Positions 13,943 through 52,683 of a stretch of 64,000 nucleotides of DNA are shown here, in pieces (position 1 is the stretch's first letter; every line of letters begins with the position of its first letter). A program made the position numbers and the translations under genes. Location of the stretch: positions 1 through 64,000 of the IMG/VR virus record IMGVR_UViG_3300046336_000034; one strand, written 5' to 3'. The notes under the pieces were generated by a model. The model was not told the DNA's origin. It worked only from the letters and a program-made list of their open reading frames with translations, and made no database searches. This DNA is from a virus.

Positions 13943-14026
13943 CTTGTAATCAAAATATGTCGCTTAAAAACAACAAGCAGGGTGGTAACAAATCACCTTT
14001 TCGGACTGCATATCCTAGCCTGTGTT
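13943..14026 (-). promoter_or_regulatory. Endonuclease-leader RNA element, copy C
   Basis: Three-way junction on the minus strand. P1: 13974-13978 with 14018-14022 plus AACA/TGTT beyond a one-base bulge. P2: 14003-14005 with 14013-14015. P3: 13981-13984 with 13994-13997, loop 13985-13993. Junctions are UA, GAAAA and CU. Part of the P3 loop (13988-13992) can pair, 5 bp with one G-U, with 13943-13947 at the AAGG ribosome binding site. P1 contains a G-U pair that would be A-C if read from the plus strand, supporting minus-strand RNA. Confidence 0.65.
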
Positions 14027-14033
14027 ATCTTTA

Positions 14034-14062
14034 ATTATAACACTAAATGTGCAGGTTGTCAA
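14034..14062 (-). promoter_or_regulatory. Sigma-70 promoter of the HNH cassette
   Basis: Perfect TTGACA and TATAAT hexamers with a 17-bp spacer. The -35 overlaps the last codon of the endolysin gene. Transcription would start immediately at the 5' end of the leader RNA element. Confidence 0.9.
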
Positions 14063-14523
14063 GATAAATCTGACAAACAGAATTGCTGTTCGGCTTCTCT
14101 ACGCTTTATTAAGCCTTTTAACTCCACTAACTGCCCTGCAACTCTTGCCTTGTTCCATTTTGGGAGTTCATTACAAGCCTCTTTATATTTACCCTGAGAT
14201 AAGTATTTAGAGGCTGTGCTATTACAAGCTACTGCACCACCGATGTTGAACACAGCATCAGAAAAAGAGGCTCTTACCTTGTCAGGTAAGTTTGGATGGC
14301 ACTTGTCTACAATATCAACGGCTTCTTGCATATCTGTACTAATTAAGGATTTACACTCTTCTAATGAATACTTCCTACCCTTAACAATGTCGTTACCTGT
14401 ATGTCCGTAGCAGACTGTCAATATTCCAACGGGGTCTGTATAAGCATATTGACGTAGCCCCTCGGCAGGGATGGCTAGTGCTAGTGCCAATAGGATAATA
14501 CGAGAGGTATTATTTATTGTCAT
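14059..14523 (-). CDS. Signal-anchor-release endolysin, GH24 lysozyme
   Basis: A 154-residue muramidase. Residues 8-20 (RIILLALALAIPA) form a weakly hydrophobic N-terminal segment of the SAR type, letting the enzyme be exported by the Sec system and held inactive in the membrane. The catalytic triad E21-x8-D30-x5-T36 (EGLRQYAYTD ... T) is that of P21/T4-like lysozymes. Later regions VRASFSDAVFNIG and NKARVAGQLVELKGLIKRR match the family C-terminal lobe. It overlaps the holin-like gene upstream by 14 nt, forming the lysis cassette. Confidence 0.93.
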   Translation of the reverse strand: MTINNTSRIILLALALAIPAEGLRQYAYTDPVGILTVCYGHTGNDIVKGRKYSLEECKSLISTDMQEAVDIVDKCHPNLPDKVRASFSDAVFNIGGAVACNSTASKYLSQGKYKEACNELPKWNKARVAGQLVELKGLIKRREAEQQFCLSDLS

Positions 14524-14797
14524 TGGATACTCTCTTTTCTATCTCTGCTAATTCTTTAGCGAGTACCCTCATTTGTAAATCGTATTGGAGTTTATCTCGC
14601 TCATCTGCTTCAATAGCCCGTCTATCTGCCCTTGTGTTTCGATAGTACGAGACAATCTGGATAAACACACCTACAACAAGAGCGACAAAACCAAGCATCT
14701 GGGTAAGGTCAATTCCTTGCAGTAAACTCGCAACCCAAGCTACTCCCCCTGTCATTGACACTTTAAACCCGAACGGTTCGTTCATCAAATCATTCAT
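14510..14797 (-). CDS. Holin-like membrane protein
   Basis: A 95-residue protein (ATG at 14795-14797; a GTG one codon earlier is also possible). Two hydrophobic stretches, about residues 10-28 (weak) and 33-52 (LGFVALVVGVFIQIVSYY), are followed by a highly charged coiled tail (RNTRADRRAIEADERDK ... KRVSNDNK). This resembles class II phage holins/pinholins encoded just before SAR endolysins. The overlap with the endolysin gene supports the role. Confidence 0.7.
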   Translation of the reverse strand: MNDLMNEPFGFKVSMTGGVAWVASLLQGIDLTQMLGFVALVVGVFIQIVSYYRNTRADRRAIEADERDKLQYDLQMRVLAKELAEIEKRVSNDNK

Positions 14798-14993
14798 CAC
14801 TTTTTCCTAAATTCAAATAAACATAAACTACAGTAAACACAACAGGCACTCTACCTATTGCGTATAGAATATTTTGTTGCCAAGCGTCTACGGTGAGTTT
14901 ATTGATAAAAGGTACAACAGATAGACCAGTGAAAAACAGCACTGCGCTAACAGCTAATGTCAAACCTATAACATCCTTGATTTCTAACTTCAT
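14790..14993 (-). CDS. Small membrane protein of the lysis cassette
   Basis: A 67-residue product with two transmembrane helices (about 8-30 and 40-60) and short charged ends. ATG behind AAGGGTGTAGT, overlapping the previous gene by 4 nt. It could be a second holin, an antiholin or a Rz-independent lysis regulator; sequence alone does not decide. Confidence 0.6.
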   Translation of the reverse strand: MKLEIKDVIGLTLAVSAVLFFTGLSVVPFINKLTVDAWQQNILYAIGRVPVVFTVVYVYLNLGKSDE

Positions 14994-15175
14994 ACTACAC
15001 CCTTATCTAGTTTCTTCTCCGCATAGGACGATGTCCCATACACACCTAAAGCTCCTATAACGAGAGACACCAGTGCAGAAGATTCTAGGTCAGTTGTCCA
15101 AGCTGTTATAAAAGCTAAAAGAATAACACTAGATGTTTGAATGTACCTTCTTGATAAGTACTTATTATCTTCCAT
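14990..15175 (-). CDS. Small membrane protein of the lysis cassette
   Basis: A 61-residue protein with two hydrophobic segments (about 12-28 and 33-50) and a basic C-terminus. It overlaps both neighbours, so three small membrane-protein genes in a row precede the endolysin. Which is the holin is open. Confidence 0.6.
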   Translation of the reverse strand: MEDNKYLSRRYIQTSSVILLAFITAWTTDLESSALVSLVIGALGVYGTSSYAEKKLDKGVV

Positions 15176-15596
15176 CTTTTTCTTTCTGAAGTCTTGCTAT
15201 GTAAGTCAAGAGAACTTCTGGTGTAGCTCGTTCATCAACTGCACCCAGCATCATGTAAAGGACTAACTCGTAACAGTAGTATCGTCTTGAGTCCCGCACC
15301 TTTAAGAACAGAAAGGATAATAGGCTGAAATAATCATAAGCACAGTCCTTAATCTGGTTGTACCGCTCAAGAGCTAACTCATTAGGAATGTCGTACTCAA
15401 ACCATTCGTAGTCTTGAGCAAGAGCAGTTGTTATAGGATAATCTCTTACACCTGATTTACTCTGGTCACCTTTTAGTGCAGTGGACTCATAGAACCTGTC
15501 ACCAATCCAGACACCAGCGTGTGACCACTGAGAGGTAGTGAGTGTCCTGACAATACCACTGTACCATTTATGACCTTTTTTGAAACCTATCCTCAT
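15165..15596 (-). CDS. Permuted NlpC/P60 (YiiX-like) papain-fold hydrolase
   Basis: A 143-residue protein with SQWSHAGVWIGDRFYES at about residues 22-38 (catalytic His26) followed much later by YYCYELV (Cys108). The His-before-Cys order is the circularly permuted form of the NlpC/P60 superfamily, known as YiiX/YebB-like amidases. In phages these occur in tail or lysis modules and may cut peptidoglycan peptides or lipids. It is the first gene of the lysis block, coupled to the small membrane-protein gene. GGAGG precedes the ATG. Confidence 0.7.
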   Translation of the reverse strand: MRIGFKKGHKWYSGIVRTLTTSQWSHAGVWIGDRFYESTALKGDQSKSGVRDYPITTALAQDYEWFEYDIPNELALERYNQIKDCAYDYFSLLSFLFLKVRDSRRYYCYELVLYMMLGAVDERATPEVLLTYIARLQKEKDGR

Positions 15597-15608
15597 GGTA
15601 AGTGCCTC

Positions 15609-16118
15609 CTATATTCCTAGAGAAGCGCGGATAGCTGTGACAAAGCCACCCCATTGTTGCATCGCTGTAGACACATCATTGGTAATGTTCTTCTTAGCTG
15701 TGAGGCGATTAGCACGTATAGCAGAAGCTGCTCCCCTCCAAGCATTTGCTTGTGCAATAATGTCGTCAGTAGCTTCTTGTGCAGTTGTCAAACCTTTAGT
15801 ATTGTTAGTCAACCAGCTTGCAACAAAAGAAGGGACAGCACCTGTGTACAGTGCAGCTTTAAATGCGTTTGCTTGTAGCTCTGCTTCACTGTACTCTGTA
15901 GCCCTATTGCCAATAGCTGCTGCGTAGATTAAGTCCACGTCAGCATCGACTTTTTTGAGTAATTCTGCCTTGGTGGGTGGTACTGGTACAGGGATGTTTG
16001 CTATACGAATAGCCTCAGCTTCTTCGTCGGTAATGGGTACACTTCCGACAGGAAGTAGATAAGCGAACTCTGATGAGTCGATTACGTGGAGTTTATTTTG
16101 AGTATCTTTGTAGTGCAT
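15609..16118 (-). CDS. Tail-fibre-assembly-like protein
   Basis: A 169-residue protein whose N-terminal part (MHYKDTQNKLHVIDSSEFAY ... VPITDEEAEAIR) resembles the DUF4376/tail-fibre-chaperone type, followed by an Ala-rich helical C-terminus. It is the last gene of the appendage block, the usual place of fibre chaperones. ATG behind AAGGAACAAAT. Confidence 0.6.
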   Translation of the reverse strand: MHYKDTQNKLHVIDSSEFAYLLPVGSVPITDEEAEAIRIANIPVPVPPTKAELLKKVDADVDLIYAAAIGNRATEYSEAELQANAFKAALYTGAVPSFVASWLTNNTKGLTTAQEATDDIIAQANAWRGAASAIRANRLTAKKNITNDVSTAMQQWGGFVTAIRASLGI

Positions 16119-16127
16119 ATTTGTTCC

Positions 16128-16988
16128 TTAAATAGACTCGAACCAATTATTAAGTGTCCCAGTGCCAGAAGATACGATGACTGAATATGAACCACTTGGC
16201 GGCACGTCAACTTGAACACCGACTGCTTGATTTGTCGTATTACCGCCATTAGGCCCCCAGACAACAGCTACACCATTGACAATCCCATTCATACTCATTG
16301 CTGCAGCAGTAGCAGTCGCATACACAGAGACTTTTTTTACCTTGCTTGAGGTGTTGTAATAAGTAGTTCCGAAGACTCGCCCCGGTGTTGTTTTTACATC
16401 GGTATAGACAAAATTCGCCATGGTAGCAAGAGCCTGACCACCCATAGGTTGAACCAAACTCAGCGCAGTCGCATAAGTACCAGCAACAGCCTGTGTGGAG
16501 TCAAGGCAACCCACAACGCGATAAGCAACGGATGTTCTAGCAGTCGTTGAATAAACCACCGAAGCAGATGTTGCACCAGCAGATATTGCTGTTGTGGAAA
16601 TCAAGCCCATTTCACTCAGGTCAACGCCACCCGCTTGATTCACTACGGCAAGCTCTTTTGTCCCTGTCGCATTCAGCTCCAGCACAATGTACCGAGCAGC
16701 TACAGCATTAACCGAACCAAGGGTTGCGCCTTGTGGAATGGTCAGCGTCAGTGGTGAAACATTAGATAGCTGTACTGGTGCGCCAGTAGCTAATGTCGTT
16801 GGTCGGAAAATCGTGGAGCATTGCCCCATTGTGATGACAATGGTGTTTGCAGTGGCAACAGCAGACAAGGGCTTGAAGCCGTTATCGACACCAGAGACAA
16901 CACCTGTGGCATCCATGATTAGTGAATCAACACCATTAGTCTGAATAGCGGATTGTGTGGAGTTTTTTGCGTAGATTGAAGTGGTCAT
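16128..16988 (-). CDS. Putative tail appendage/receptor-binding protein
   Basis: A 286-residue Ala/Thr/Val-rich beta protein without charged clusters. I place the start at ATG 16986-16988 (MTTSIYAKNSTQ) because AAGGG lies 9 nt upstream; a TTG three codons earlier has no usable spacing. The C-terminus ends in a compact domain (SYSVIVSSGTGTLNNWFESI). It follows a C1q-like fibre gene by one base and is presumably part of the same tail-tip structure. Confidence 0.6.
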   Translation of the reverse strand: MTTSIYAKNSTQSAIQTNGVDSLIMDATGVVSGVDNGFKPLSAVATANTIVITMGQCSTIFRPTTLATGAPVQLSNVSPLTLTIPQGATLGSVNAVAARYIVLELNATGTKELAVVNQAGGVDLSEMGLISTTAISAGATSASVVYSTTARTSVAYRVVGCLDSTQAVAGTYATALSLVQPMGGQALATMANFVYTDVKTTPGRVFGTTYYNTSSKVKKVSVYATATAAAMSMNGIVNGVAVVWGPNGGNTTNQAVGVQVDVPPSGSYSVIVSSGTGTLNNWFESI

Positions 16989-16989
16989 G

Positions 16990-17613
16990 TTACGCAACCC
17001 TTGTTATAGTAAAACCAGTACGGTCTGTTGAAGCTCCAGAGGAGGTAATACCGTGTGCTCGTATCACATCGTTAGCTGCAAGTGGTAACGTAACGGCAAT
17101 CGTTGATGGCAAATCATTTGCCGATGTAACCGCTAGTGCTAGCCTTGTGGCAACAGTGATACTTGTGGGGGCAGTTGTTAGTTGTGCGCTGTTTAGACTA
17201 ATTGCCATACCGCCAGTTGTACTAAATGAATCCGTATAACTAATGGCATAAACTCCAGCTGTGTTGATAGTGAATGTCGCACCAAGAGTTGCACTGTCGG
17301 CATAGGTAATATCAGAGCCTGTATTTGTGACGATATTTGCGAATCTGCGTATAGCTATATTTGTACTGCCGTAACCGTTAGCCGTATTGAGTCTAACGGT
17401 CGGAGGTGGCACAATCGGACTGAGTGCAGGCAATCCTTGCATAAGCTGCAACTTCCCATCCGCCCCAATAGTCAAAATATCCTGCGTAGTCGCTCCGACA
17501 TTACCCCGTGCGAGGGTTGCTGTGCCATCTGCGTTGGTGCGTAGTGTGAAGTTCTGTGTAGCAGTGGCGGAGTCGCCTAGCTGTACAGCGTTTGTTTTGA
17601 TGGTTCCGGCCAT
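16990..17613 (-). CDS. Tail fibre protein with C1q/TNF-like C-terminal domain
   Basis: A 207-residue product (start MAGTIKTNAV; AAGG upstream). Residues 1-60 (KTNAVQLGDSATATQNFTLR, DGTATLARGNVG) are the neck repeat seen in many phage fibres. The rest, with TFTINTAGVYAISYTDSF and NDVIRAHGI, resembles trimeric jelly-roll C1q/TNF-like heads that bind receptors. The upstream extension of 16 codons in the ORF lacks a ribosome binding site. Confidence 0.65.
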   Translation of the reverse strand: MAGTIKTNAVQLGDSATATQNFTLRTNADGTATLARGNVGATTQDILTIGADGKLQLMQGLPALSPIVPPPTVRLNTANGYGSTNIAIRRFANIVTNTGSDITYADSATLGATFTINTAGVYAISYTDSFSTTGGMAISLNSAQLTTAPTSITVATRLALAVTSANDLPSTIAVTLPLAANDVIRAHGITSSGASTDRTGFTITRVA

Positions 17614-17621
17614 AGTTAACC

Positions 17622-18050
17622 TTATGTATTGTAAAAATGAGACTGCAATTTGGCAGCCCATCCGTCTTTGATTGTTTGTGTAATCAAAGGGTTTGTAATT
17701 GCTTGAACCTTACCAATGGCAATTTCAAAACTTAATGTATTGATAAAGTTCAACAGCTCTTGCAACTGAGGGTCCGACATCAAGCTCACTAATTGTTCTA
17801 GTGACCACGTTCCAGAGACTAATCTTGCTACGTTTTCAGTTGCAAACTCTGACATGATTGTTTTGACCGCCTCGTATCGTTTTGCATATTTGATTAAACG
17901 AAGCTCGTCTGGAGTTTTAGCTGGTGGTGTGGGTGCATCATCTTCTATTGATAGCATTTGACCCGCTCCGACAGTTGGTTGATACTGCTCAGTATTAGAG
18001 CCAAAACAAACTACTTCATTTAACGCATTTCTAACTACTTTGAAACTCAT
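17622..18050 (-). CDS. Putative tail fibre accessory/chaperone protein
   Basis: A 142-residue protein. The N-terminus (MSFKVVRNALNEVVCFGSN) is beta-like and the rest helical (LRLIKYAKRYEAVKTIMSEF), an architecture of small fibre chaperones. It overlaps the upstream fibre-like gene by 4 nt (ATGA), indicating coupled synthesis. Confidence 0.55.
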   Translation of the reverse strand: MSFKVVRNALNEVVCFGSNTEQYQPTVGAGQMLSIEDDAPTPPAKTPDELRLIKYAKRYEAVKTIMSEFATENVARLVSGTWSLEQLVSLMSDPQLQELLNFINTLSFEIAIGKVQAITNPLITQTIKDGWAAKLQSHFYNT

Positions 18051-18565
18051 GCTGCAAACTCCTTAATGGTGATTCGTGAAGCCATAACGCCGCCGTAAAA
18101 GCCCGTTGAAGAATTACCATTTATTGTGGTAGTTCCAGCTATATTCCCACCAGAACGGACGCTAAATGTTGTTGCAGATGTAGTCCCTGCGGTCATAATG
18201 TGTTTAAACGTCACTGGAGTTTCCCCACCTGCGACTACGTTTGCAGATGCCACAGTAAGCGCATTTGCAATAGCACCTTGAAACAGCGCAACTGCTTGGT
18301 ATTGCGGTCCACTGTTTGAGACAACAAGGGTCACATCAATTTCTAGCATGCTTGCTGCACTTGTAGGAGTAATCGCCAAACTAAGGTATTGGTCACCTTC
18401 TGTTATTTGAGGTATAGAGCTGTCGTGAGGAATTAGTGTTGTACCAGTAGCAACCGCACCTGTTTGGTAGGTCACGCTTTGCAACAGACGCTTAGGTAGT
18501 ACATCTGCTGAAGCTGCTCTATCAGAACCAGTAATAGTCCCTGAGCCATTTATTGTTATACTCAT
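18047..18565 (-). CDS. Putative tail fibre/receptor-binding protein
   Basis: A 172-residue beta-rich protein, Ser/Thr/Ala-rich, with the repeat-like start MSITINGSGTITGSD common to phage side-fibre termini and a jelly-roll-like remainder. ATG behind AAGGAATAACAA. Likely a trimeric tip protein; specificity unknown. Confidence 0.6.
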   Translation of the reverse strand: MSITINGSGTITGSDRAASADVLPKRLLQSVTYQTGAVATGTTLIPHDSSIPQITEGDQYLSLAITPTSAASMLEIDVTLVVSNSGPQYQAVALFQGAIANALTVASANVVAGGETPVTFKHIMTAGTTSATTFSVRSGGNIAGTTTINGNSSTGFYGGVMASRITIKEFAA

Positions 18566-18575
18566 TTGTTATTCC

Positions 18576-25905: not shown

Positions 25906-25959
25906 CTTATTTCCTACTTATATTCTTTTTCTGTTTTAGCACTTGTTAAAATACCAAAG

Positions 25960-28264: not shown

Positions 28265-29089
28265 TCAACAACCGTCAATTTCTTTAACTTTGCAGTTATC
28301 AAAATGAAATCTAACCATCGCTGGTTTGAATGTTGATTGTTTGCCGCAATGTGGGCAAACTAGAAGAGGCTGATTTAACCAGTAATCTTTCAGCTTCTGC
28401 TTGCGCTCGTCTGTACAGGACATATCTAAGAGTGATTGAGCTAGTTTTATTTTACTTTTAGTCTCTTCTGTTCTCTGTTTTCCGAAGTTCCAATGCGTCT
28501 CACCTCCCATGCCATATTGAGGGTGGTTTACACCTGTATGCATCTGAGACATTAAACGTTTTGTCTCTTCGGTATGCTTCTTACCTTTAAAAGTACCGTC
28601 CCTGCTCTTGTAGCTTTTAATAAGAGACTCGGATAATTTTCTCAATGTCTCCTGAGTTTTAGGTTTACCTGTGTTAGCTTTTCTTACTGCTTCTTTTTGT
28701 TTTTCTGAAGTGCCAAGACCCGCTCTACCTTCTCCACCATCCGAGAGGTTAGTAAGAATGCCACCGTTATTGTCTATCCTCTTTCCGTAGAGAGAGATTA
28801 ACCTTATCTCCTCCACATACATTTCCTCTGCCGTCTCATACTGTTGGTGTAATCTTATGACAACAATTTCATTATCTTCTTGCATTCTTTTTATTTTACT
28901 TTTGACAAGAAAATTAACTCTATCCTCATTTTCAGAGAAATGCCCGTACACCCTTTTCCAGTTACAGGATGTGCCTATATAGAAAGGCATATCCCCCTGC
29001 ATTAGCATATAAACGTAATAAGCTTTACCAAGTGGTCTAAGAAAAGCTCCCACATCATATCGTGAGTTAAAGTCTAAATTCTGAAACAT
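28265..29089 (-). CDS. GIY-YIG homing endonuclease with NUMOD3 repeats and zinc finger
   Basis: A 274-residue protein. YVYML (25-29) and FYIGT (36-40) form the GIY-YIG core with catalytic Arg46. It then has a linker with NUMOD3-type motifs (FKGKKHTEETKRLMSQMHTG and FGKQRTEETKSKIK) that contact DNA, and ends in a CPHCG ... HFDNC zinc finger. The architecture is that of I-TevI/SegA-like enzymes. It is inserted between the tail terminator and tail tube genes, with its own promoter and leader RNA, hence an independent mobile cassette. Confidence 0.93.
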   Translation of the reverse strand: MFQNLDFNSRYDVGAFLRPLGKAYYVYMLMQGDMPFYIGTSCNWKRVYGHFSENEDRVNFLVKSKIKRMQEDNEIVVIRLHQQYETAEEMYVEEIRLISLYGKRIDNNGGILTNLSDGGEGRAGLGTSEKQKEAVRKANTGKPKTQETLRKLSESLIKSYKSRDGTFKGKKHTEETKRLMSQMHTGVNHPQYGMGGETHWNFGKQRTEETKSKIKLAQSLLDMSCTDERKQKLKDYWLNQPLLVCPHCGKQSTFKPAMVRFHFDNCKVKEIDGC

Positions 29090-29096
29090 ATTTTCT

Positions 29097-29178
29097 CCAT
29101 TAAAGAAACCATTACTAAATAAACAACAAGGCGGTACAGGTAATGACTCTGTATTTTCGGGAGCAACCCCTAGCCTTG
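29097..29178 (-). promoter_or_regulatory. Endonuclease-leader RNA element, copy D
   Basis: P1 CAAGGC/GCCTTG (29127-29132 with 29173-29178, 6 bp), P2 GGG/CCC, P3 TACAG/CTGTA (29135-29139 with 29149-29153), junctions UA and GAAAA, loop of nine. The loop can pair with GTAATG at 29110-29115 (6 bp) or, overlapping the ribosome binding site region, with 29097-29102 (6 bp with one G-U). Confidence 0.75.
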
Positions 29179-29190
29179 TTTCAACTAAAC

Positions 29191-30930: not shown

Positions 30931-31497
30931 TTAAATTATATCTTGTTTTGAGGATGTCGTAGACTTCGTGTATTCTGCTAAAGCCTGACTATGTTCGAAA
31001 GAGAACTCACCATAGAACTCTTTGACCCATTCCAATCTAGCAACGATAGCCTCATCTTTTGTATTAAATCGCCTACGAAGAGGGCACTTTACGTCTACAC
31101 TTATACCCGCAACCCATTTATTACGTGCTTTGTCAAAATGCACACCTATAGTGCCACTTGTGTTTTTCTCAGAGGCAGTCTTATTCATGTTATTAGACCT
31201 ACGAGAACACTCACGTAAGTTAGATATCATATTGTTCAGACGATTACCGTCGATGTGGTCGATATCTGCAATTGGAAATCTTCCGTGCACATGTAGCCAA
31301 ACTAGGCGATGGGCGTAATTCAACTCACCTGCAAAGTTAATACGCCAGTAACCACTGCTATGTAAAGTACCTGCAACACTTCCAGCCCTGCATCCTCCAC
31401 GACATTGTTTCCAAGTTAAGTCCCCCGTTTCAGGATTATAATCTAAGGCATCTCTTACTTGTTTTTGAGTTAGCTCAGGTGAGTTTATTTTCGACAT
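30931..31497 (-). CDS. HNH homing endonuclease with AP2 domain
   Basis: A 188-residue protein: LDYNPETGDLTW, HRLVWLHVHGRFP, HNH core IDHIDGNRLNNMISNLREC, AP2-type SGTIGVHFDKARNKWVAGIS. It sits between capsid and head-tail adaptor genes with a promoter, leader RNA and terminator of the capsid gene upstream: an independent cassette. GAGGGT precedes the ATG and is part of a predicted pseudoknot. Confidence 0.93.
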   Translation of the reverse strand: MSKINSPELTQKQVRDALDYNPETGDLTWKQCRGGCRAGSVAGTLHSSGYWRINFAGELNYAHRLVWLHVHGRFPIADIDHIDGNRLNNMISNLRECSRRSNNMNKTASEKNTSGTIGVHFDKARNKWVAGISVDVKCPLRRRFNTKDEAIVARLEWVKEFYGEFSFEHSQALAEYTKSTTSSKQDII

Positions 31498-31716: not shown

Positions 31717-32739
31717 TTAGTTAGAAGAATAACCACGGGCAACCAGATTAGGGCGCTTCATAACGTGGATAAAATTAGACTCACTTTCCAGTGTAATCTC
31801 TGTACCACGAGGGTCACGGAACTGCCAGAGATATTCAGGCATAGCGATTGTGTTCACCAAGCCGAAGCGATTTGCAGGACCGTAGAAACGTGTGAATGAA
31901 CCATCATCTGACTCAGCTACGAAGTAACAATCACCAGAAGGAACTAAGGCACTACCAGCAAGGACTGTGGGGACTTCGACAAAGGTTATGTTTGAAAAGG
32001 TGAAACGACGATACAACCCCATACCACCAGCACGATTGCGAAGGATGGATTGACCTTCTGTTGCAGAGTAGTAAGTGTAAGCTGCTTGCACTTTAGCATG
32101 TGCGATTAGCTTTGCAAAGAATACTGGAGAGCAATAAGCTGTTACAGAGTTGATAATCACCCCATCAGTCACTGAGTCTTGGAAACCACGGATGATTGCC
32201 TCACATTTAGCAGTAATCTCTGTTGTGGAAGTACCAAAAACGAAGTCAACTTCATTACGAGTGAAACCGAAGTCAGTGTAGAAATTACCAGAGATTGTCG
32301 CATTTGGTGACCACACATTACCAGTAGTAATAGTAGCAAAAGCTGCAACTTCCTTAGTGATTGCAAAAGACTTCTTAATCTTTTCCATTTTACGCATCAA
32401 CGCTGCTGCTTCTGTATCAGCTTGTGTCAAGTCACTGTAGGCACTCTTACCAGCAATATCATCAGGATACAAGGCATCCATCAATGGATGGTGTGTCAAA
32501 GAGTAGCTATGAATCTTGCGAACATCGTTGGATGTAGTCTGTGGTTTTGTACCACGAACTTGGTCCTTAACGATTGCGATAGAACCTTTTGTCTCTTGAA
32601 ATGTCACAACATTCTGTGACAAGAACTCATCCTTAAACAAACCAGAATCGCCGAGCAAAGTCCAAGTTTGTGGGAGGGTATTCAGTTCACGGGTGCTGTC
32701 TACAACTTCAAAGTTATTTGTAAAACTACGAACGGTCAT
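31717..32739 (-). CDS. Major capsid protein (lambda gpE-like fold)
   Basis: A 340-residue protein following scaffold and decoration genes. MTVRSFTNNFEVVDSTRELN, the loop with RGTKPQTTSNDVRK, and the C-terminal part (GMGLYRRFTFSNITFVEVP ... GDCYFVAES ... FGLVNTIAMPEYLWQ) match the lambda gpE/DUF-type capsid family, in which the last domain reads ... RFGLVNT ... P.YLW. Length equals lambda gpE (341). A terminator immediately downstream and strong GAGAGAATAA ribosome binding site fit high expression. Confidence 0.93.
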   Translation of the reverse strand: MTVRSFTNNFEVVDSTRELNTLPQTWTLLGDSGLFKDEFLSQNVVTFQETKGSIAIVKDQVRGTKPQTTSNDVRKIHSYSLTHHPLMDALYPDDIAGKSAYSDLTQADTEAAALMRKMEKIKKSFAITKEVAAFATITTGNVWSPNATISGNFYTDFGFTRNEVDFVFGTSTTEITAKCEAIIRGFQDSVTDGVIINSVTAYCSPVFFAKLIAHAKVQAAYTYYSATEGQSILRNRAGGMGLYRRFTFSNITFVEVPTVLAGSALVPSGDCYFVAESDDGSFTRFYGPANRFGLVNTIAMPEYLWQFRDPRGTEITLESESNFIHVMKRPNLVARGYSSN

Positions 32740-42235: not shown

Positions 42236-42238
42236 GGT

Positions 42239-42436
42239 TTATTTAATTTCTATAGTGTCGATGATGTAGGAACTGGATGCAAAGCGTAGACCTTCTGGTA
42301 GCTGAATTACTTTATCGTAGTAAATCATTGTTCCATCGCTAAGTTGAACAGGGTTACTATCTGATTCAAGAACACTCCCTACGTATTTACCGTCTGTAGT
42401 GTCCGTGATACAGAGTTTTAATTTTTTAACTTTCAC
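42239..42436 (-). CDS. Small beta protein (65 aa) of the appendage block
   Basis: Starts at GTG (42434-42436), overlapping the stop of the 865-codon gene (GTGA). The product MKVKKLKLCITDTTDGKYVG ... is a small beta domain, likely an accessory of the neighbouring structural proteins. Confidence 0.6.
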   Translation of the reverse strand: MKVKKLKLCITDTTDGKYVGSVLESDSNPVQLSDGTMIYYDKVIQLPEGLRFASSSYIIDTIEIK

Positions 42437-45030: not shown

Positions 45031-45031
45031 T

Positions 45032-45682
45032 TTATAATATCTCTGTCAAAACTGAGGTTAAAATCCCCGTTGTGTAATTAAGCGTCTTACGCACTGTTTG
45101 GTCTACTTGGAAATGGTCAACATACTGAAGAACACCACCTGCCCAATACAAGAGTTTATATGTACCGTCTGCGTAGTCCACTCTTTGCAAATCTTCACCT
45201 GAATAAGTCAGTTCATCTAGACCCTCAGTCTCTGTACTCACTGTTCCAGTACCTGTGGCGGTTTGAACCACGACAACGGAATGTTCAACGGCTGTGATAG
45301 GTGCAACATTGGAAACGATAGTTTTACCATCTGCAAGTTTAAGAATTAAACGCCCTTTATCGTCGAATTGAGCGCCTACAACATCGTTCCCTTGGGGTAG
45401 GTTAGCCTTGGCTATTTGAGGCTCTTGTAGAGCTTCCTGATAAGCCTGTGGGTTATTTCTGATGTCCAGGATTGCTTGAAGGTGTCTTGGAACAGCAGGT
45501 TTAACAAATTTCTTAATTGTTTTCTGCTCTGCCTGCTTTACAAGGGCTAAGCCTTTGAAGATTGCCTCATCAGTTGACCTACCGTTTGCTAGGGCTTCAT
45601 TGGCTGCGTCTGCAAAGAGTAATCTTATTTCTCTACTCTTCCCTTGTAGTGTGGGGTGTGTTGATAGGGCTGTGTATTGCAT
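45032..45682 (-). CDS. Structural protein with ChaB-like N-terminus
   Basis: I take the start MQYTALSTHP (ATG 45680-45682); a 14-codon extension in the ORF overlaps the HNH gene. Residues 20-50 (FADAANEALANGRSTDEAIF) resemble the ChaB/XkdF-associated helical motif. The rest is beta-rich with GRLILKLADGKTIVSNVAP and LTYSGEDLQRVDYADGTYKL, the sort of small repeats seen at fibre attachment points. Location between portal and the large spike suggests an adaptor. Confidence 0.55.
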   Translation of the reverse strand: MQYTALSTHPTLQGKSREIRLLFADAANEALANGRSTDEAIFKGLALVKQAEQKTIKKFVKPAVPRHLQAILDIRNNPQAYQEALQEPQIAKANLPQGNDVVGAQFDDKGRLILKLADGKTIVSNVAPITAVEHSVVVVQTATGTGTVSTETEGLDELTYSGEDLQRVDYADGTYKLLYWAGGVLQYVDHFQVDQTVRKTLNYTTGILTSVLTEIL

Positions 45683-46253
45683 CTTGTTTTCCGTGTCTCT
45701 CTGAGTACCTAGCACCTGCTGCATTGAGTTCTTGTTGTTTTAGTAATTTAAAATTCATTGCTAAGTCAAAAGCTCCGTCTACACCGTATTTCGAAATTGA
45801 AAAACTCCTGCCACACTGTTTTCCAGAGGGGAGTTTCCAATTTACTTCCCATGACTCATAGACACGCCCTTTTATAATCTTTTTACGCAAGCACATCCCT
45901 GTGAAACCAGAAGTGTTTGTTGACCGCTTCTTCTGGTTTCTTGAGTTAACCGCATGAGACACTTCTCTCAGATTGAGAAAACGATTGTCAGAGCGATTAC
46001 CATTCTTGTGGTCAATTTCCTCCGTAGGGAAAACACCAAACGCGTATAACCAAGCTAAACGGTGAGCTTTATACGGAATGTTATCTATCTTAATTACTGT
46101 GTAACCATGTTGGATAGTGCCAGCGGGTTGTCCCACTTTGACACTGTTTGCGTGAGGATAAGGTTTCTTAATCCAGACAAACACCCCAGTCTCTTTGCTA
46201 TAATCTAGCACCTCTTTTAACCGTTCTCTGGTTAATTCTCTATTAAATTTCAT
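45633..46253 (-). CDS. HNH homing endonuclease with AP2 domain
   Basis: A 206-residue protein: LDYSKETGVFVW, HRLAWLYAFGVFP, HNH core IDHKNGNRSDNRFLNLREV, AP2-type SGFTGMCLRKKI ... WEVNWKLPSGKQ. The domain ends at YSERHGK; the last 17 codons run into the next gene in another frame, as if the insertion destroyed the original stop. Own promoter and leader RNA upstream. GAAGGAATCAGA precedes the ATG and lies in the pseudoknot. Confidence 0.93.
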   Translation of the reverse strand: MKFNRELTRERLKEVLDYSKETGVFVWIKKPYPHANSVKVGQPAGTIQHGYTVIKIDNIPYKAHRLAWLYAFGVFPTEEIDHKNGNRSDNRFLNLREVSHAVNSRNQKKRSTNTSGFTGMCLRKKIIKGRVYESWEVNWKLPSGKQCGRSFSISKYGVDGAFDLAMNFKLLKQQELNAAGARYSERHGKQDAIHSPINTPHTTREE

Positions 46254-46261
46254 TCTGATTC

Positions 46262-46337
46262 CTTCGTAAAAGGCGTAATAATAAAAGCAAAAGGAAGTAG
46301 TTTACGAAGCTACTTGTCGGCTGCCGCCTATCCTTTG
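46262..46337 (-). promoter_or_regulatory. Endonuclease-leader RNA element, copy E
   Basis: P1 AAAGGA/TCCTTT (46290-46295 with 46331-46336), P2 GGC/GCC (46319-46321 with 46326-46328), P3 AGTAG/CTACT (46296-46300 with 46310-46314), junctions UA and GACA. The whole nine-base P3 loop (46301-46309) is a perfect complement of 46262-46270, which includes the GAAGG ribosome binding site: the strongest copy. Confidence 0.85.
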
Positions 46338-46354
46338 TTATAACTTAATAATAT

Positions 46355-46383
46355 ATTATATCACAAATACTCTAGTATTTCAA
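46355..46383 (-). promoter_or_regulatory. Sigma-70 promoter of the HNH cassette
   Basis: TTGAAA, 17 bp, TATAAT on the minus strand, beginning at the end of the portal gene. Confidence 0.85.
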
Positions 46384-46386
46384 ATA

Positions 46387-47856: not shown

Positions 47857-47885
47857 ATATTGGATTAGCTCCTTGGAGATTTACT

Positions 47886-49585
47886 TTAAGTGAACTCGCC
47901 TTGTTGAAGGGGTGCTGCACCTGTGGGGAGTTGGGTTGTTTGGAAGCCGAAAGAGGTTGCTTGGGTTAGGTCTGGGAGGGAGAAGGATGGTAAAGGTGCT
48001 TGCTTATTTAGTAAAACAAAACAATCTGAACTTGCATCTGCTTGGTCGTCCTTATAATTATTAGTACCGTCGAAGGTTTCGAGTTCCCTGTGGTAATCCG
48101 CATTCCACTCACCTTTGACAATGCTAACAAAACCACCTTCTGCTACAGCAGCAAACGGAGCAAACCGCTGTACCTTAGCTCTTGTAGGCTTAACTAATCT
48201 ACAAATAAAACCAGCTTCTAATAGACGCTTTTGTAATCCCTTGACATAAGCTCCACCACCTGCGGGGTCAAGAGGTAATCCGACAACTACGTCTGTGCCA
48301 TCTGCTCTTGCTGTATTGAGAATAAGTTCTTCAACAACATGTGCTCGGTCACGAATCCTAACGACATCTTCAACTGTATAAAGTGACTTAACATCTTTAG
48401 ACATCAAAACACCTGCTGTATAATCAGGATTTTTCGAGGAGCTTTCATTTGGTTTTGTGAAACTCAAATCCCAAGCCCTGACACGTTTAAGCACCTTTGC
48501 GGGAGGGTATAGAACTTCTATTACCCAGTGTTGTTTCCAGTAACCTGATGCACTCTCACGAGCGTACCAAGAACCGTAAAGTAGGCGTTCTTTTTCTACT
48601 AGGGGGAGGGCTTTTAGTTTAGAAATATAGCTTGGGTCAGCCTTCATCAACACAGGATTTGAGTAGATATTCCCCGGAATAAATTTGAAACTAAGTATCC
48701 CCGACTCACCACCTGTGCCATAGATTTTCTCAAGTTCTTCTCTTGAATCTGCCCATTCCATACCGCCACCAGATACCTGCACAAAATACCTGTTAGGATA
48801 CTCATCCCGTATTATTGGAATACCTCGTTCGTCAAGTGCGTACTCAACCCACTCACGCATAAAGGAATCGTAATCGGGATTACCTGTCGCAAAGATTTGT
48901 TTCTTAAAATCTACGGAGGTTGACCTGAGCCTAGAGAAAAGATAAACCACATTCTCCCTAGAGAGCTGTTGAATTTCATCGAAGCCGAGAAAATTAAGTT
49001 CTGCCCCCTGCCAGTTATATTTATCTGATGGGTTATCTAAGTAAGCAAACTTCAATGTTGCACCTGAACTGAAGATAATTTCTAAGTCTCGATTTCTTAC
49101 TTTTAAAGCTGGGTCAACCTTCTTATATAATTGAATTGCAGCATCAAATAAGCCACCACTGTTACTAAGTTGCTTTGTTGTTTTACGAAATATCACACCA
49201 CGAGTACGAGGATGGTGACAGAACTTCAGGAATGAGCCAAGCAAGCAAAATGATTTACCTGCTCCCGCTGCCATATTTGTTATGTGATTCGTTAATTCAC
49301 TCCCATATTTCTACGGGTATCGGACTATATCTTTAATCTTTCGATTACCTACTGTTTCGACTGCACTTGCAGCCTACAAGCTTTCGCTTTAGTCTCTACA
49401 CACGCCCAGAGATTACTCTCTTGCTTGGCTCGGTATTGCCCTCGGCTTTACGTTAGGGTTTCACCGAATTAAATAGGTTTTGCTCGGAGGCGCAATTCAC
49501 CACCGTAGTAAGTTATATCAGCATCACTCAAAAGGTACTGCTCTTGAGCTTTGGACGCTGGTGCAAACACTAATTCTTCATTCAT
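47886..49585 (-). CDS. terL: Terminase large subunit (spliced; two exons)
   Basis: Exon 1 is 49499-49585 (29 codons, MNEELVFAPASKAQEQYLLS ... YYGG) and exon 2 is 47886-49271 (461 codons). Joined they give 490 residues with Walker A GGAAGAGKS at 28-36, Walker B FLGFDEIQQL, an ATPase coupling region, and the RNase H-like nuclease (RAWDLS, LDPAGGG, DDQADASSDCF). The enzyme cuts and pumps DNA into the prohead. The intron falls between Gly29 and Ala30, inside the P-loop, so unspliced mRNA cannot give active enzyme. The ATG has AAGGAA nearby and overlaps the GIY-YIG gene by 8 nt. Exon 2 alone could be mis-annotated as starting at the ATG that is really the intron 3' end. Confidence 0.95.
49272..49498 (-). 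mobile_element. Group I intron (227 nt) in the terminase gene
   Basis: The minus-strand RNA shows the hallmarks of group I introns of the phage type: P1 with a U-G at the 5' splice site, the P3-P4-P5-P6 region (TTCGGTGAAACCC ... GGGCAATACCGAGCC), P7 GACTA/TAGTC with the signature AAGATATAGTCC, a P9 hairpin and a terminal G. It has no internal ORF. Exons join in frame to rebuild the P-loop. The neighbouring upstream GIY-YIG gene, which is outside the intron, is a candidate for its spread. Confidence 0.95.
49499..49585 (-). CDS. terL: Terminase large subunit, exon 1
   Basis: ATG at 49583-49585. The last codons GGT GGT supply the first two glycines of the Walker A motif. The 3' end CGGTGGT pairs with GCCTCCG of the intron guide to form P1, with a U-G pair at the splice site. 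Without splicing, translation runs nine-odd codons into the intron and stops at TAA. Confidence 0.92.
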
Positions 49586-50699
49586 CCGTTTCCTTTATTC
49601 TTATGTAGACATCTCGCATTTTATTTAATAAAACTGATTCAAGCTCCACAGGATAACATTCGGTGTAACCTGTTCTACGCATGTACTGTTTCATTTTTTC
49701 AACGGGAAGTTTATACTCTATGAAATCTGAGTGTATGTCCAGTTCAAGTTTTGTCGCAACTCTTCCATTAACAACAGGAAACGAGTAAAGCAGGTCTGAA
49801 GAACTTCCACCTAGTAAGCCATATTCTCTAATGCGGTTTTTTGGGTTTTTACCATAGCCGAGTTTTAAGAAAGTAAAATCAAATACCTTGATTTTAAATA
49901 GGTAGATATTACTTGCATTATTCAAATATGAATCGTTGCATTCGTGACAAATAAAATTATTACGAGTCACGCAAACTTTGTCTATATCCCTGATGTGCCC
50001 ACAGTCTACAAATCTATAACTTTTAAATCTCGATGGAAGCTCAAGGCTTGAGGCATCTCCTAGTAACTCTAATCCACGTTGCCTTACTAGCGCAAGATAT
50101 GCAACTTCTTCGCAGTCACTGCACTTAGGTACACCATGTTTAAGTCGGTGCTCTAACATATAGAAAGTATGCCCGCACTCTAAATGTCTGTACCTATTAT
50201 AACTGTTGGGGCGATTAAGATGCCTAGCTGCCTCTGGTGCTTTCTCTACTAACTCTATACCATATTTTGACGTTGCCAGTGTGAGCTTTGATTGCGTACA
50301 CTCATCACACACATAAGGAATGAGCGGAGGTTTTTGTAAATTACTGTAGAAAATATCTACCTCATGCCCACACTCTAGTACTTTGTACTTTCGTTTCAGA
50401 ACACACCCATCAGAGGAAGCCCCAAGACATAACAGACCTCTTAAAGACTCTGCTTCCTCTGCACGAGAGTCTGAGCACATCTTGCAAGTAAGTACTCCTT
50501 TACTATTACAAATATTACTGATTTGTCTAACCGTGGAATGACCACAGGTATTAAAAATATAGTTTCCGTACCACCTAGGTTTCTTTAAAAACATACTTAA
50601 TAAAGTAAGTCCACGTTTAGATGCGTATCCTTGATTTAATTTAAATCGTTGAACTTCCTTATTAGTGTTGTCATTGATTAAGTCTGTAAACATTCCCAT
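49578..50699 (-). CDS. GIY-YIG endonuclease with four tandem CGH zinc modules
   Basis: A 373-residue protein. Four modules of about 60 residues each carry a CGH (52-54, 110-112, 175-177, 233-235) followed by CxxC (72-75, 131-134, 193-196, 251-254), probably four zinc-binding units for DNA recognition. The C-terminal nuclease has IYLFKI (265-270), LKLGYGKNP (278-286), Arg289 and a GYTECY end of the T5orf172-type GIY-YIG clan. It lies between the small and large terminase genes with a leader RNA of type B, and its end overlaps the terminase start. It is probably a free-standing homing endonuclease. Confidence 0.88.
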   Translation of the reverse strand: MGMFTDLINDNTNKEVQRFKLNQGYASKRGLTLLSMFLKKPRWYGNYIFNTCGHSTVRQISNICNSKGVLTCKMCSDSRAEEAESLRGLLCLGASSDGCVLKRKYKVLECGHEVDIFYSNLQKPPLIPYVCDECTQSKLTLATSKYGIELVEKAPEAARHLNRPNSYNRYRHLECGHTFYMLEHRLKHGVPKCSDCEEVAYLALVRQRGLELLGDASSLELPSRFKSYRFVDCGHIRDIDKVCVTRNNFICHECNDSYLNNASNIYLFKIKVFDFTFLKLGYGKNPKNRIREYGLLGGSSSDLLYSFPVVNGRVATKLELDIHSDFIEYKLPVEKMKQYMRRTGYTECYPVELESVLLNKMRDVYIRIKETDE

Positions 50700-50704
50700 A
50701 TTAT

Positions 50705-50783
50705 CTCCTCAGATAATCCTCTAAAATAAAACAAACAGCGGGAGAATGAGGAGTTCTCTTTCGGGAATGACCCTAGCTGTTGT
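50705..50783 (-). promoter_or_regulatory. Endonuclease-leader RNA element, copy B
   Basis: P1 ACAA-CAGC/GCTG-TTGT with one bulge (50731-50739 with 50776-50783), P2 GGG/CCC (50763-50765 with 50771-50773), P3 GAGAA/TTCTC (50742-50746 with 50754-50758), junctions UA and GAAA. P3 loop CTCCTCA (50747-50753) is a perfect 7-bp complement of 50705-50711, TGAGGAG, which contains the ribosome binding site. Confidence 0.85.
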
Positions 50784-50795
50784 TAAAACTATTAC

Positions 50796-51185
50796 TTACT
50801 CTTCGACCTTGTCAATTTCTTTACCACCAGAAATCATTGTCAACGAAAATACAGGTGCTTTAGTAGTAGGTTGAATTTCCTGACCTTCTTGTTCATCGTA
50901 CTCAGTTGAATAAACATCTTTAATCAACTCCCGATAAATCTGAAGTACCAGAGCTGCACTCTTCAACTTATTCTGGTCTGAAGAATCTTCGCTTTCTATA
51001 ATTTCCATCACAGTTTTAACACTTGATGAAAGATGAGGCTTCAACTTACGGATTAAGCTAATAAATTCTCTATTTCTGACCTCTCGGTTTGTTAGAGGCT
51101 CGGCTTTACGTCCGTCAATCCTGCCTGACATGTTAATATTAGGGTCGGTATCACCACCCAGTAACTCGCGTCTCTTAAAAACCAT
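50796..51185 (-). CDS. Putative terminase small subunit
   Basis: A 129-residue protein before the large terminase. Helical centre (LTNREVRNREFISLIRKLKP, LKSAALVLQIYRELIKDVY) and an acidic C-terminus are consistent with a small terminase that recognises packaging sites. The call relies chiefly on position; the sequence shows no clear helix-turn-helix. GGATAGTATAG precedes the ATG. Confidence 0.55.
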   Translation of the reverse strand: MVFKRRELLGGDTDPNINMSGRIDGRKAEPLTNREVRNREFISLIRKLKPHLSSSVKTVMEIIESEDSSDQNKLKSAALVLQIYRELIKDVYSTEYDEQEGQEIQPTTKAPVFSLTMISGGKEIDKVEE

Positions 51186-51210
51186 ACTATACTATCCTTT
51201 TACACCTGAA

Positions 51211-51239
51211 AGTATACAATAATATACCACAAACAGCAA
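51211..51239 (-). promoter_or_regulatory. Sigma-70-like promoter for the packaging genes
   Basis: TTGCTG, 17 bp, TATACT on the minus strand, 25 nt upstream of the putative small terminase gene. Confidence 0.65.
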
Positions 51240-51261
51240 AAGCCTCCCTATAGGAAGCTAG
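51236..51261 (-). terminator. Hairpin terminator downstream of tRNA-Thr
   Basis: Minus-strand AGCTTCC-TATA-GGGAGGCT followed by TTTTGC. It separates the tRNA/lipoprotein transcript from the packaging promoter. Confidence 0.6.
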
Positions 51262-51367
51262 TTAAAATTAATGACAATCTTTATTTAAACAGGCGTTGTC
51301 TTCCTGTTGACGCTTCGTACTTTTCAATACTCTCCGTGGTCAAAACGTGCCCTAAGGTAGTGGGACT

Positions 51368-51443
51368 TGGTGCTCCGTGGAGGATTTGAACCCACGACCT
51401 CACCCTTACAAGGGGCGCGCTCTTCCAACTGAGCTAACAGAGC
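51368..51443 (-). tRNA. tRNA-Thr (anticodon TGT)
   Basis: 76 nt with encoded CCA. Acceptor GCTCTGT/ACGGAGC, D arm GCTCAGTTGGAAGAGC, anticodon stem CGCCC/GGGTG with loop CTTGTAA (anticodon TGT), T arm with TTCAAAT loop and one mismatch, discriminator A. Confidence 0.93.
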
Positions 51444-51452
51444 TAATTCTTT

Positions 51453-52043
51453 TTAGACTTTACAATCGGTTGTACCATTCAGTACGCCGTAGATATGCGG
51501 TAACCAACCCTTGCGAACTTCACCGTTGGTGAACTTACCATCAACTACTTGCCCCTTGATGCCTACCTTAGCACCGCCAACATCTACAGCCATGCCAAGT
51601 GAACCATCGAGATTCATACCACCTTCAACAGGGTAATCAGTAAGAAATAAATTTAATTTAGATTGTTCTTTAACAATCTGACCATTCGCATCAAACACGA
51701 ACTTAAAACCGTTTCCCAGTAAAGTCATTTCACCTCCTTGATTTCGCACATCAGTAGGATAGTCTCCTGTAATCGTAATACCCTTAGATGCCGCCTCAAT
51801 CACTAGGGCTTTAACCCTATCTTCCATAGGTGAAGCATCTACAGAGCCTGTAATCTGGCAAGAGAACTTAGTCACTGCTGCAGGAGCAGTCTCAACAACT
51901 CCACTGGTGCAAGCTGTAGTAGCTAATATTAAGACAAGGGTAAAAATAATAAAGGAAACCTTCAACCAATGGTGATTCCAAAAATTCATATCTGGCTTAA
52001 TCCATTTATTAACCCCGTTAAGCGAGTAGTTTATTTTCAACAT
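51453..52043 (-). CDS. Lipoprotein of unknown function
   Basis: A 196-residue protein with a hydrophobic export signal (residues 28-43, VSFIIFTLVLILATT) ending in the lipobox ATTAC, so Cys45 would be lipidated. ATG at 52041-52043 has AAAGGACAAGA upstream, lying inside the HNH gene; a second ATG at codon 19 would give a more normal signal length. The exported part is a beta-like domain with GSVDASPMEDRVKALVIEAA. Phage lipoproteins of this sort often block receptors (superinfection exclusion); role here is inferred. Confidence 0.75.
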   Translation of the reverse strand: MLKINYSLNGVNKWIKPDMNFWNHHWLKVSFIIFTLVLILATTACTSGVVETAPAAVTKFSCQITGSVDASPMEDRVKALVIEAASKGITITGDYPTDVRNQGGEMTLLGNGFKFVFDANGQIVKEQSKLNLFLTDYPVEGGMNLDGSLGMAVDVGGAKVGIKGQVVDGKFTNGEVRKGWLPHIYGVLNGTTDCKV

Positions 52044-52593
52044 TCTTGTCCTTTTCTATTATAACTGGGTAAAATACGCCACTATACTCTAGCGCCTTAC
52101 TTTCATATACACTGCTTGCTTCCTGTGGTGTTGCAAAGCTTCCAAGATGGATTTTTTCACCTGTCAAGCTACGTATTTGAGCAACATATCTGCACGATTT
52201 TATATCCCAACTTACACCCTTAAGACCACTTGTATTGCTTCTAGGCTTACTTGTATTTCTTTTGTTTTCTCGGTGCGAGCAGACCCTGAGATTACTAATA
52301 CAATTATTAATAGGATTCCTATCAATATGGTCAATTAGGTTTTGTTCTCCGAAAGGAAATTTCCCATGAACATATAACCAAGCTAATCGGTGTTCCAAGT
52401 AGGCTTGACCATCAATCTTAATTACCCTATAGCCATTAGGTCTTAAATAACCTGCCCTGTTACCTACTACAATCTTGCTATAAATGGAACTTTTCTCAAT
52501 CCAAGTAAAGACTCCAGTATTGGAATCATATTTTAATAATTCTTTTAACCTGTCTAAAGTTAACTTTACTTCTTTTCTCTCGTTGGTTTTCAT
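52018..52593 (-). CDS. HNH homing endonuclease with AP2 domain
   Basis: A 191-residue protein: LKYDSNTGVFTW, HRLAWLYVHGKFP, HNH core LIDHIDRNPINNCISNLRVC, AP2-type SGLKGVSWDIKSCRYVAQIR. It overlaps the lipoprotein gene by 26 nt at its end and has leader RNA copy A upstream. It sits downstream of the ncRNA terminator and so may depend on its own weak promoter or read-through. GGAAACAAA precedes the ATG. Confidence 0.93.
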   Translation of the reverse strand: MKTNERKEVKLTLDRLKELLKYDSNTGVFTWIEKSSIYSKIVVGNRAGYLRPNGYRVIKIDGQAYLEHRLAWLYVHGKFPFGEQNLIDHIDRNPINNCISNLRVCSHRENKRNTSKPRSNTSGLKGVSWDIKSCRYVAQIRSLTGEKIHLGSFATPQEASSVYESKALEYSGVFYPVIIEKDKNVENKLLA

Positions 52594-52600
52594 TTTGTTT

Positions 52601-52683
52601 CCTTAGTTAATAGGATAGTTACTAATAAAACAATCAGCAGGAAGGTAACTAATCTTCTTTTCGAGAATGACTCTAGCTGTTGT
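52601..52683 (-). promoter_or_regulatory. Endonuclease-leader RNA element, copy A
   Basis: P1 ACAA-CAGC/GCTG-TTGT with one bulged base (52630-52638 with 52676-52683), P2 GAG/CTC (52663-52665 with 52671-52673), P3 GAAG/CTTC (52641-52644 with 52654-52657), junctions UA and GAAAA, loop of nine. Loop TTAGTTA (52646-52652) pairs 7 bp with TAACTAA (52603-52609), abutting the AAGG ribosome binding site. Confidence 0.8.

Follow-up and report, generated by a model that had tools for sequence, protein, structure and literature searches.

An int-alpA-class leader RNA that moves with homing endonuclease genes in a phage and probably acts as a two-state translational switch

The stretch of DNA analysed here (the window, 64 kb of the 87-kb virus record IMGVR_UViG_3300046336_000034) carries phage genes that include those for terminase, Mu-type portal, capsid and tail, and five of its homing endonuclease genes are preceded by a common structured leader whose core is that of the Rfam int-alpA class (RF02996). 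In this phage clade the leader and the nuclease gene move as one unit, and related leaders precede many other kinds of phage genes. Judging from their sequences, these cis-acting 5′ leaders probably constitute a two-state translational switch of the gene starting about 30–40 nt downstream, in which the apical loop of one helix (P3) would be exchanged between a proximal segment and a distal segment lying on or next to the Shine-Dalgarno (SD) sequence.

Identification and Class of the Leader

The initial annotation of this DNA had described six leaders sharing this RNA, each in front of a nuclease gene. A covariance model (R1) was built from 37 diverse cores, the five cores of the window being included among the training rows. 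The scan of the whole 87-kb record gave exactly five matches above noise, all on the minus strand and scoring 35–53 bits (52633-52681, 13973-14023, 50734-50781, 29127-29178, and 46290-46336), the next match having an E-value of 2.6. These five leaders are referred to as D52, A13, F50, E29, and C46, respectively. The sixth proposed copy (B31, at 31.5 kb) was rejected, as it presented no match to R1 or int-alpA, no UA/GAAAA junction, and no proximal target; its 6-bp loop match arose without the three-way junction structure.

The int-alpA model of Rfam 15, which is independent of R1, recovered four of the five copies, with matches in E29 (29109-29180, 45.2 bits), F50 (50718-50783, 33.2 bits), A13 (13958-14025, 26.2 bits), and D52 (52616-52683, 25.6 bits), while C46 was not listed at E ≤ 1. 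Only E29 passes the Rfam cut-off of 35.8 bits, the other three falling below it; among 19 other phage-type loci, 12 meet this cut-off. E29 is thus filed as an int-alpA member, and F50, D52, A13, and C46 as homologues of the class by R1, which was also trained on them. Since int-alpA and the window leaders share a P1-UAG-P2-CGAAAAG-P3-CUG core, the core of the RNA was already described, contrary to what had been stated.

Common Architecture

A BLASTN search with the int-alpA consensus recovered few phage copies, for which reason junction patterns and covariance models were needed. Further copies were collected by junction patterns that left the P3 loop and all downstream sequence free, and two viral scans produced at least 120 matches each. 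A structural descriptor matched 234 times versus twice in shuffled sequence, although most loci had been fetched by their junction pattern. After this descriptor and redundancy removal, 103 leaders were kept, and the loop tests were performed on 97 non-redundant leaders.

The usual order of elements is P1, UA, P2, GAAAA, P3, CU, P1′, a short U-rich linker, the proximal target, the hairpin P4, and the start codon, with a median of 34 nt between P1′ and the start codon. The apical loop of P3 usually has 7–9 nt, and in the typical leader P4 bears the distal target and holds the SD either in its loop or in its 3′ strand. In P1–P3, which were partly selected for pairing, 97.3% of cells are paired and all 13 pairs vary on both sides. 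The junction bases are near-invariant, including the CU before P1′ that the search patterns did not fix, whereas the helices and loops are freely variable.

Two segments downstream are complementary to the P3 loop: one proximal, just after P1 (pairing PK1), and one distal, overlapping or beside the SD and usually within P4 (pairing PK2). This two-target pattern was first noticed by comparing E. coli int-alpA copies with those of the window, and both the proximal target and the P4 hairpin had been missed by the initial annotation. The E. coli copies (L142, L143, and L146), which carry proximal and distal targets too, lie about 25–40 nt before the start codon of an unclassified open reading frame (ORF) placed between the integrase gene and a small AlpA-like regulator gene.

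The position relative to genes identifies the RNA as a cis leader, since for 74 of the 103 cores an ATG with its SD, opening an ORF of 100 aa or more, lies 15–60 nt downstream; among random positions of the same loci this holds for 2.2%.

Covariation of the P3 Loop with Two Downstream Targets

Because sequences were selected by P1–P3 only, and PK1, PK2, and P4 were not used to choose them, tests of downstream pairing are not circular. When loops were swapped among the 97 leaders, the true loops exceeded the swapped ones with z-scores of 19.9 for the proximal and 17.2 for the distal segment, and none of 5000 permutations reached the observed means. A strict subset of 34 leaders without any shared loop 5-mer gave z-scores of 12.1 (proximal) and 10.5 (distal), and the 20-nt region upstream of P1, used as control, gave −0.3. 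In the 19 endonuclease leaders of this clade and the Curvibacter phage P26059A, the values were 6.6 and 8.0, reached in none of 20,000 permutations.

Within the window, the true assignment was the best of the 720 possible loop-leader assignments of the six proposed copies for the distal segment (p = 0.0014; proximal p = 0.011), and the p-value was 0.008 for proximal and distal alike when B31 was removed. The complementarity between loop and SD region and the covariation of the two, both proposed at the outset, are therefore borne out beyond chance. For example, the E29 loop AGUCAUUAC faces the targets GUAAUG and UAAUGG; in L592, a relative of E29 at the same site, the loop changes to AUUCAUCAC together with GUGAUG and UGAUGGA; and in the Curvibacter phage copy the loop UUCCUAGA accompanies UCUAGG and CUAGGAA. 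Moreover, the P4 stem around the distal target presented a z-score of 15.8 versus shuffled flanks, and the folding energy of the region a z-score of −1.36 ± 0.13.

These results bear on two alternative explanations. It could be argued that U/A-rich leaders fold by accident and that leaders containing an SD match pyrimidine-rich loops by chance, as the weak single-sequence folding of the window cores and the unstructured 6-bp match of B31 might suggest. However, the loop swaps keep composition and SD content fixed and the descriptor discriminated strongly against shuffled sequence, so that chance, to which we give practically no weight, was ruled out by the permutation tests. The other explanation is a trans-acting small RNA whose P3 loop, often resembling an anti-SD, would pair with other mRNAs, which would agree with the Rfam type of RF02996 and with the CCUU or CCUC found in many loops. 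It is very unlikely, as the loops covary with their own downstream segments, differ between copies, and keep a tight spacing to the start codon.

The Five Copies in the Window

The leaders, their targets, and the genes behind them all lie on the minus strand. The E29 core (29125..29180, R1 40.9 bits) is composed of P1 (29173-29180/29125-29132), P2 (29159-29170), and P3 (29135-29153), with its loop at 29140-29148. The proximal target GUAAUG (29110..29115) would form PK1 with CAUUAC of the loop, and the P4 hairpin UUUCU[UUAAUGG]AGAAA (29092..29108) contains the distal target UAAUGG (29097-29102) beside the SD. The gene that follows (28265..29089) encodes a GIY-YIG/NUMOD3 homing endonuclease of the group I intron endonuclease subfamily, SegD-like, which shares 46% identity with one encoded by Curvibacter phage P26059A.

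The F50 core (50734..50781, R1 42.8 bits) presents P2 at 50763-50773 and P3 at 50742-50758, with the loop ACUCCUCAU at 50746-50754. The proximal target is GAGGA (50717-50721), and P4 (50700-50717) carries UGAGGAG (50705-50711), at once distal target and SD, which can form 7 bp with the loop. It precedes a free-standing T5orf172/MUG113 endonuclease gene (49578..50699), a GIY-YIG-like assignment that is below the cut-off.

The three remaining copies precede HNH_3 endonuclease genes. In D52 (core 52634..52680, R1 52.8 bits; P2 52663-52673; P3 52641-52657; loop AUUAGUUAC 52645-52653), the proximal target GUAACUA (52616-52622) is followed by a weak P4 (52600-52615) with the distal target UAACUAA (52603-52609) adjoining the SD AAGGA, upstream of the gene at 52018..52593. 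In A13 (core 13973..14023, R1 44.6 bits; P2 14003-14015; P3 13981-13997; loop AUUUGUUAC 13985-13993), located before the gene at 13342..13935, the targets are degenerate (ACAAG, 13943-13947). C46 (core 46288..46337, R1 35.0 bits; P2 46319-46328; P3 46296-46314; loop CUUCGUAAA 46301-46309) has a GACA junction variant, the proximal target UUACG (46274-46278), and a P4 (46261-46273) with the 9-bp distal target UUUACGAAG (46262-46270) overlapping the SD, ahead of the gene at 45633..46253. The SD is paired or enclosed in P4 before the nuclease start in E29, F50, and C46, weakly so in D52, and unclearly in A13.

The junction strands UA/GAAAA/CU are complete in D52 and A13, while E29 has CC for CU, F50 has GAAA and CC, and C46 has GACAA and no CU. 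The three-way junction with UA and GAAA(A)/GACA strands that had been described for copies A–E is accordingly found in A13, C46, D52, and E29 and is absent from B31. The GACA-for-GAAA subtype, in which P1 is closed by A-U and the CU linker is missing, is also seen in L086 and L601/L602, and in this phage group it recurs ahead of both HNH and GIY-YIG genes. When the window cores were folded one sequence at a time, the result was unremarkable (z −0.3 to −2.3), simple thermodynamic folding being uninformative as evidence, and the evidence for the leader is thus comparative.

All six nuclease genes named at first are present: four HNH_3, one GIY-YIG/NUMOD3, and one T5orf172/MUG113-like. The label HNH-AP2 given to the former holds for HNH_3 in all four, but AP2 was found in only one, the A13 gene, at 30.3 bits (cut-off 33.3). 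The HNH_3 gene at B31 (30931..31497) has a leader that is not a member. Likewise, two HNH_3-like genes (54179-54703 and 54911-55399, minus strand; the second below cut-off) had no leader in the R1 scan of the record; they lie near a tRNA-Asn gene, the second is possibly decayed, and together with the B31 gene they make three leaderless HNH genes.

Mobility with Nuclease Genes

The comparison of insertion sites among relatives of this phage revealed that the leader accompanies different nuclease genes. Between a small gene (50796-51185 in the window) and the terminase gene, the leader is found with a GIY-YIG gene in the window and in L103, with a NUMOD4-HNH gene in L086 and L087, and with an endonuclease-VII-like HNH gene in L088, beginning 4–17 nt past the upstream stop codon in those measured. 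In eight relatives in which this site is empty (L083, L084, L089, L091, L092, L095, L096, and L107), leaving a gap of about 90–154 nt, the leader is absent. Similarly, between the tail terminator and tail tube genes, the leader precedes a GIY-YIG gene in the window, L592, and P26059A, and an HNH gene in L580. As differing nuclease families at one site keep the leader and empty sites lack it, leader and nuclease gene behave as one inserted unit. The original proposal of a mobile element independent of the nuclease family thus stands, with GIY-YIG, HNH_3, NUMOD4-HNH, and endonuclease-VII-like genes carrying the leader, sometimes at the same site.

Downstream Genes and Distribution

Leader copies are present in 13 of 27 records of terminase relatives of this phage, and where the ORF downstream could be read it was nearly always an HNH or GIY-YIG gene. 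The cultured Curvibacter phage P26059A contributes two copies (one at 14577-14658), each ahead of a gene annotated as an endonuclease. The idea that the leader accompanies HNH genes in general was rejected: among the loci examined for 80 HNH relatives, the descriptor revealed no copy that was convincing, and of 50 of these records, taken whole, only 4 had an R1 match anywhere.

Outside this clade, the leader precedes DUF1376, DUF927, methyltransferase, and other genes, and is a general device rather than the endonuclease element initially supposed. Pfam analysis of 99 downstream proteins identified as the commonest families DUF1376 (15; 'primosomal protein' in PHROGs), HNH_3 (11), DUF927 (6), NUMOD4 (3), and methyltransferases, besides single cases of integrase, Dam, and others. 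In bacterial genomes, a real R1 match was present in 20 of 100 loci retrieved by a GC-rich pattern, mostly from beta- and gammaproteobacteria, the rest being chance matches.

This diversity of downstream genes is relevant to two explanations concerning the trigger. In the first, the UA/GAAAA/CU junction would be the binding pocket of a ligand riboswitch, and a metabolite or ion in infected cells would pick PK1 or PK2, so that the switch would be unchanged but chemically triggered. Pseudoknots between a loop and the SD are common among translational riboswitches, the junction bases are near-invariant with helices and loops free to vary, and such diverse genes speak against one autoregulating protein. 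Yet bases in junctions are also conserved solely for folding, there is a GACA variant that lacks CU (C46, L086, and P26059A), and the downstream genes have no common metabolic theme; this explanation is rather unlikely. In the second, which seems somewhat less probable still, a host or phage RNA-binding protein would act on the junction or pseudoknot and lock the SD away. The protein gp32 and ribosomal proteins bind their own leaders, the pseudoknot of the T4 gene 32 leader being protein-bound, and the recurrence of the leader before many unrelated genes would fit one trans factor. Nevertheless, the variety of these genes is too great for each product to regulate its own gene, and the bias of real matches to beta- and gammaproteobacteria, which would fit a host factor, may be caused by the GC-rich search pattern.

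A broader possibility, which we regard as doubtful, is that the int-alpA class is a widespread modular sensor RNA of phages and prophages, with a ligand- or infection-responsive junction shifting the loop from a decoy to the ribosome-binding site (RBS) or back, swapped as a cassette among unrelated genes. The cassette genes would be, with the same degree of doubt, homing endonucleases, replication initiators, and methyltransferases, and the RNA a mobile plug-in translational switch.

Proposed Mechanism

In the two-state switch that we consider probable, the P1-P2-P3 three-way junction would present the P3 apical loop to two downstream partners. Pairing with the proximal segment just after P1 (PK1) would form an H-type pseudoknot, and pairing with the distal segment, usually in the P4 loop, would form a kissing contact (PK2). 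We infer that PK1 and PK2 are mutually exclusive because they usually share loop bases and their predicted energies are matched: at least three loop bases are shared in 73 of the 97 leaders, and the mean predicted energies are −5.3 kcal/mol for PK1 and −5.2 kcal/mol for PK2 (n = 70 leaders with both helices of at least 4 bp). They are two distinct contacts, since PK1 reaches the 3′-most loop base in 69% of leaders and PK2, which is more central, in 26%; the reach of PK1 to the 3′ end of the loop is as expected for a coaxial H-type pseudoknot.

PK2 and P4 would hide the RBS in the OFF state, and PK1, by occupying the P3 loop, would free P4 and the SD in the ON state. During transcription, PK1 could form first, and PK2 only after SD synthesis. 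In this phage group, the leader travelling with homing endonuclease genes would keep nuclease synthesis low or late, and elsewhere in phages it would control replication and other genes. This architecture fits the translational OFF/ON switch of the initial annotation.

A simpler explanation is RBS occlusion, in which P4 and/or PK2 would cut initiation by a fixed amount, PK1 would be a junction lock, no switching would occur, and timing would be set by promoters, as in T4 I-TevI and segB and Aeh1 mobE. RBS-sequestering structures upstream of homing endonuclease genes are established (PMC2988022) and P4 alone is well supported; however, two targets of equal energy that overlap in the loop are hard to explain without exchange, and we consider this explanation unlikely.

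Several observations count against the two-state switch. The SD of some leaders is located in the stem of P4 and not in the kissed loop, so that much of the repression may be due to P4 alone. In 27 of the 97 leaders one of the two helices has less than 4 bp, and shorter PK1 and PK2 helices could coexist within a 9-nt loop. Some targets are misassigned because proximal and distal regions were separated at a fixed 20 nt, Rfam types RF02996 as Gene; sRNA, and A13, the weakest copy of the window, forms only about 5 bp with its distal target and has mismatches to the proximal one. Finally, the leaders of DUF927-type genes (n = 7) gave a z-score of −0.2 for the proximal segment and a weak distal signal (p = 0.08). 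These leaders, upstream of primase-like genes of about 950 aa, are possibly a one-target variant; they carry a nearly fixed distal element, GGACGGCU, directly before the AUG (L311, L225, L224, L241, L242, L400, and L448).

Neighbouring Features

A group I intron splits the large terminase gene at the Walker A coding region (49280-49580, minus strand). Terminase exon 1 (MNEELVFAPAS...YYGG) and the stop codon that ends the F50 nuclease gene overlap, and exon 2 begins AAGAGKS. Group I introns are found at or near the same terminase site in the relatives L099, L102, and L104, so that a free-standing nuclease gene lies directly upstream of an intron, an arrangement for which collaborative homing is possible.

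The D52 leader is preceded, at a distance of about 60 nt, by a match to the Rfam abiF RNA (RF03085) above the cut-off (52744-52780, minus strand, 40.7 bits). No Abi family was detected among the six proteins encoded between 50796 and 55975 (PADLOC for all six, Pfam for most). The gene for major capsid protein E (31717-32739, minus strand) gave a sub-threshold Pfam match to the anti-CRISPR AcrF2 (20.3 bits, with no stretch passing alone), almost certainly by chance.

Comparison with Known RNAs

Rfam types int-alpA as an sRNA gene, whereas here it is a cis leader of many kinds of genes. Its 71-nt model stops at the proximal segment, leaving P4, the SD, and the start codon outside. The position between integrase and alpA, which is the naming context and not an Rfam inclusion criterion, occurs in the E. 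coli copies L142-L144 and L146 and not in this phage. A literature search returned nothing for RF02996 and a single, incidental paper on int-alpA. The cis-leader role before many phage genes and the mobility with endonuclease genes seem to be new, as do the distal SD target and P4, and probably the competition too; the original int-alpA description may already draw PK1.

An orphan Rfam family annotated as an sRNA and widespread in phages thereby acquires a more complete architecture and a function that can be tested. One mobile translational switch, shared by free-standing homing endonucleases that belong to different families, would be a general answer to how the nuclease is kept in check, and one loop with two competing, jointly covarying partners would be a natural bistable RNA of unusual clarity. 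As copies occur in a phage cultured with its host (Curvibacter phage P26059A and Curvibacter sp. IMCC26059), and also in elements of E. coli and Klebsiella, these proposals lend themselves to immediate testing.

In the preQ1, SAM-II, and glutamine riboswitches and in the repZ pseudoknot of IncI plasmids, a loop pairs at or near the SD and controls initiation. The window leader differs from them in sequence and junction, has two rival partners per loop, and is not known to have a ligand; the Rfam scan of the window gave no match to any of the four. HEARO, or omega RNA, is a structured RNA beside an HNH/IsrB nuclease gene, a likeness shared by the window RNA, which differs in being an upstream leader, in preceding GIY-YIG and non-nuclease genes too, and in not being a guide. 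An identity as HEARO or as a ribozyme was rejected, as Rfam gave no such match in the window (for HEARO, at E ≤ 1).

A parallel in function is offered by the RBS-sequestering hairpins upstream of the homing endonuclease genes I-TevI, I-TevII, I-TevIII, and segB of T-even phages and mobE of Aeh1, which have been linked to late expression and, for I-TevI, also to the protection of intron splicing (PMC2988022). In both cases an RNA structure lies over the SD of GIY-YIG or HNH genes and would keep expression low or late, as proposed for the T-even leaders (PMC2988022). Nevertheless, the T-even leaders are single hairpins, escaped by means of a late promoter inside the structure (PMC2988022), whereas the window leader is a three-way junction with a loop that has two alternative partners, homologous across nuclease families and other genes.

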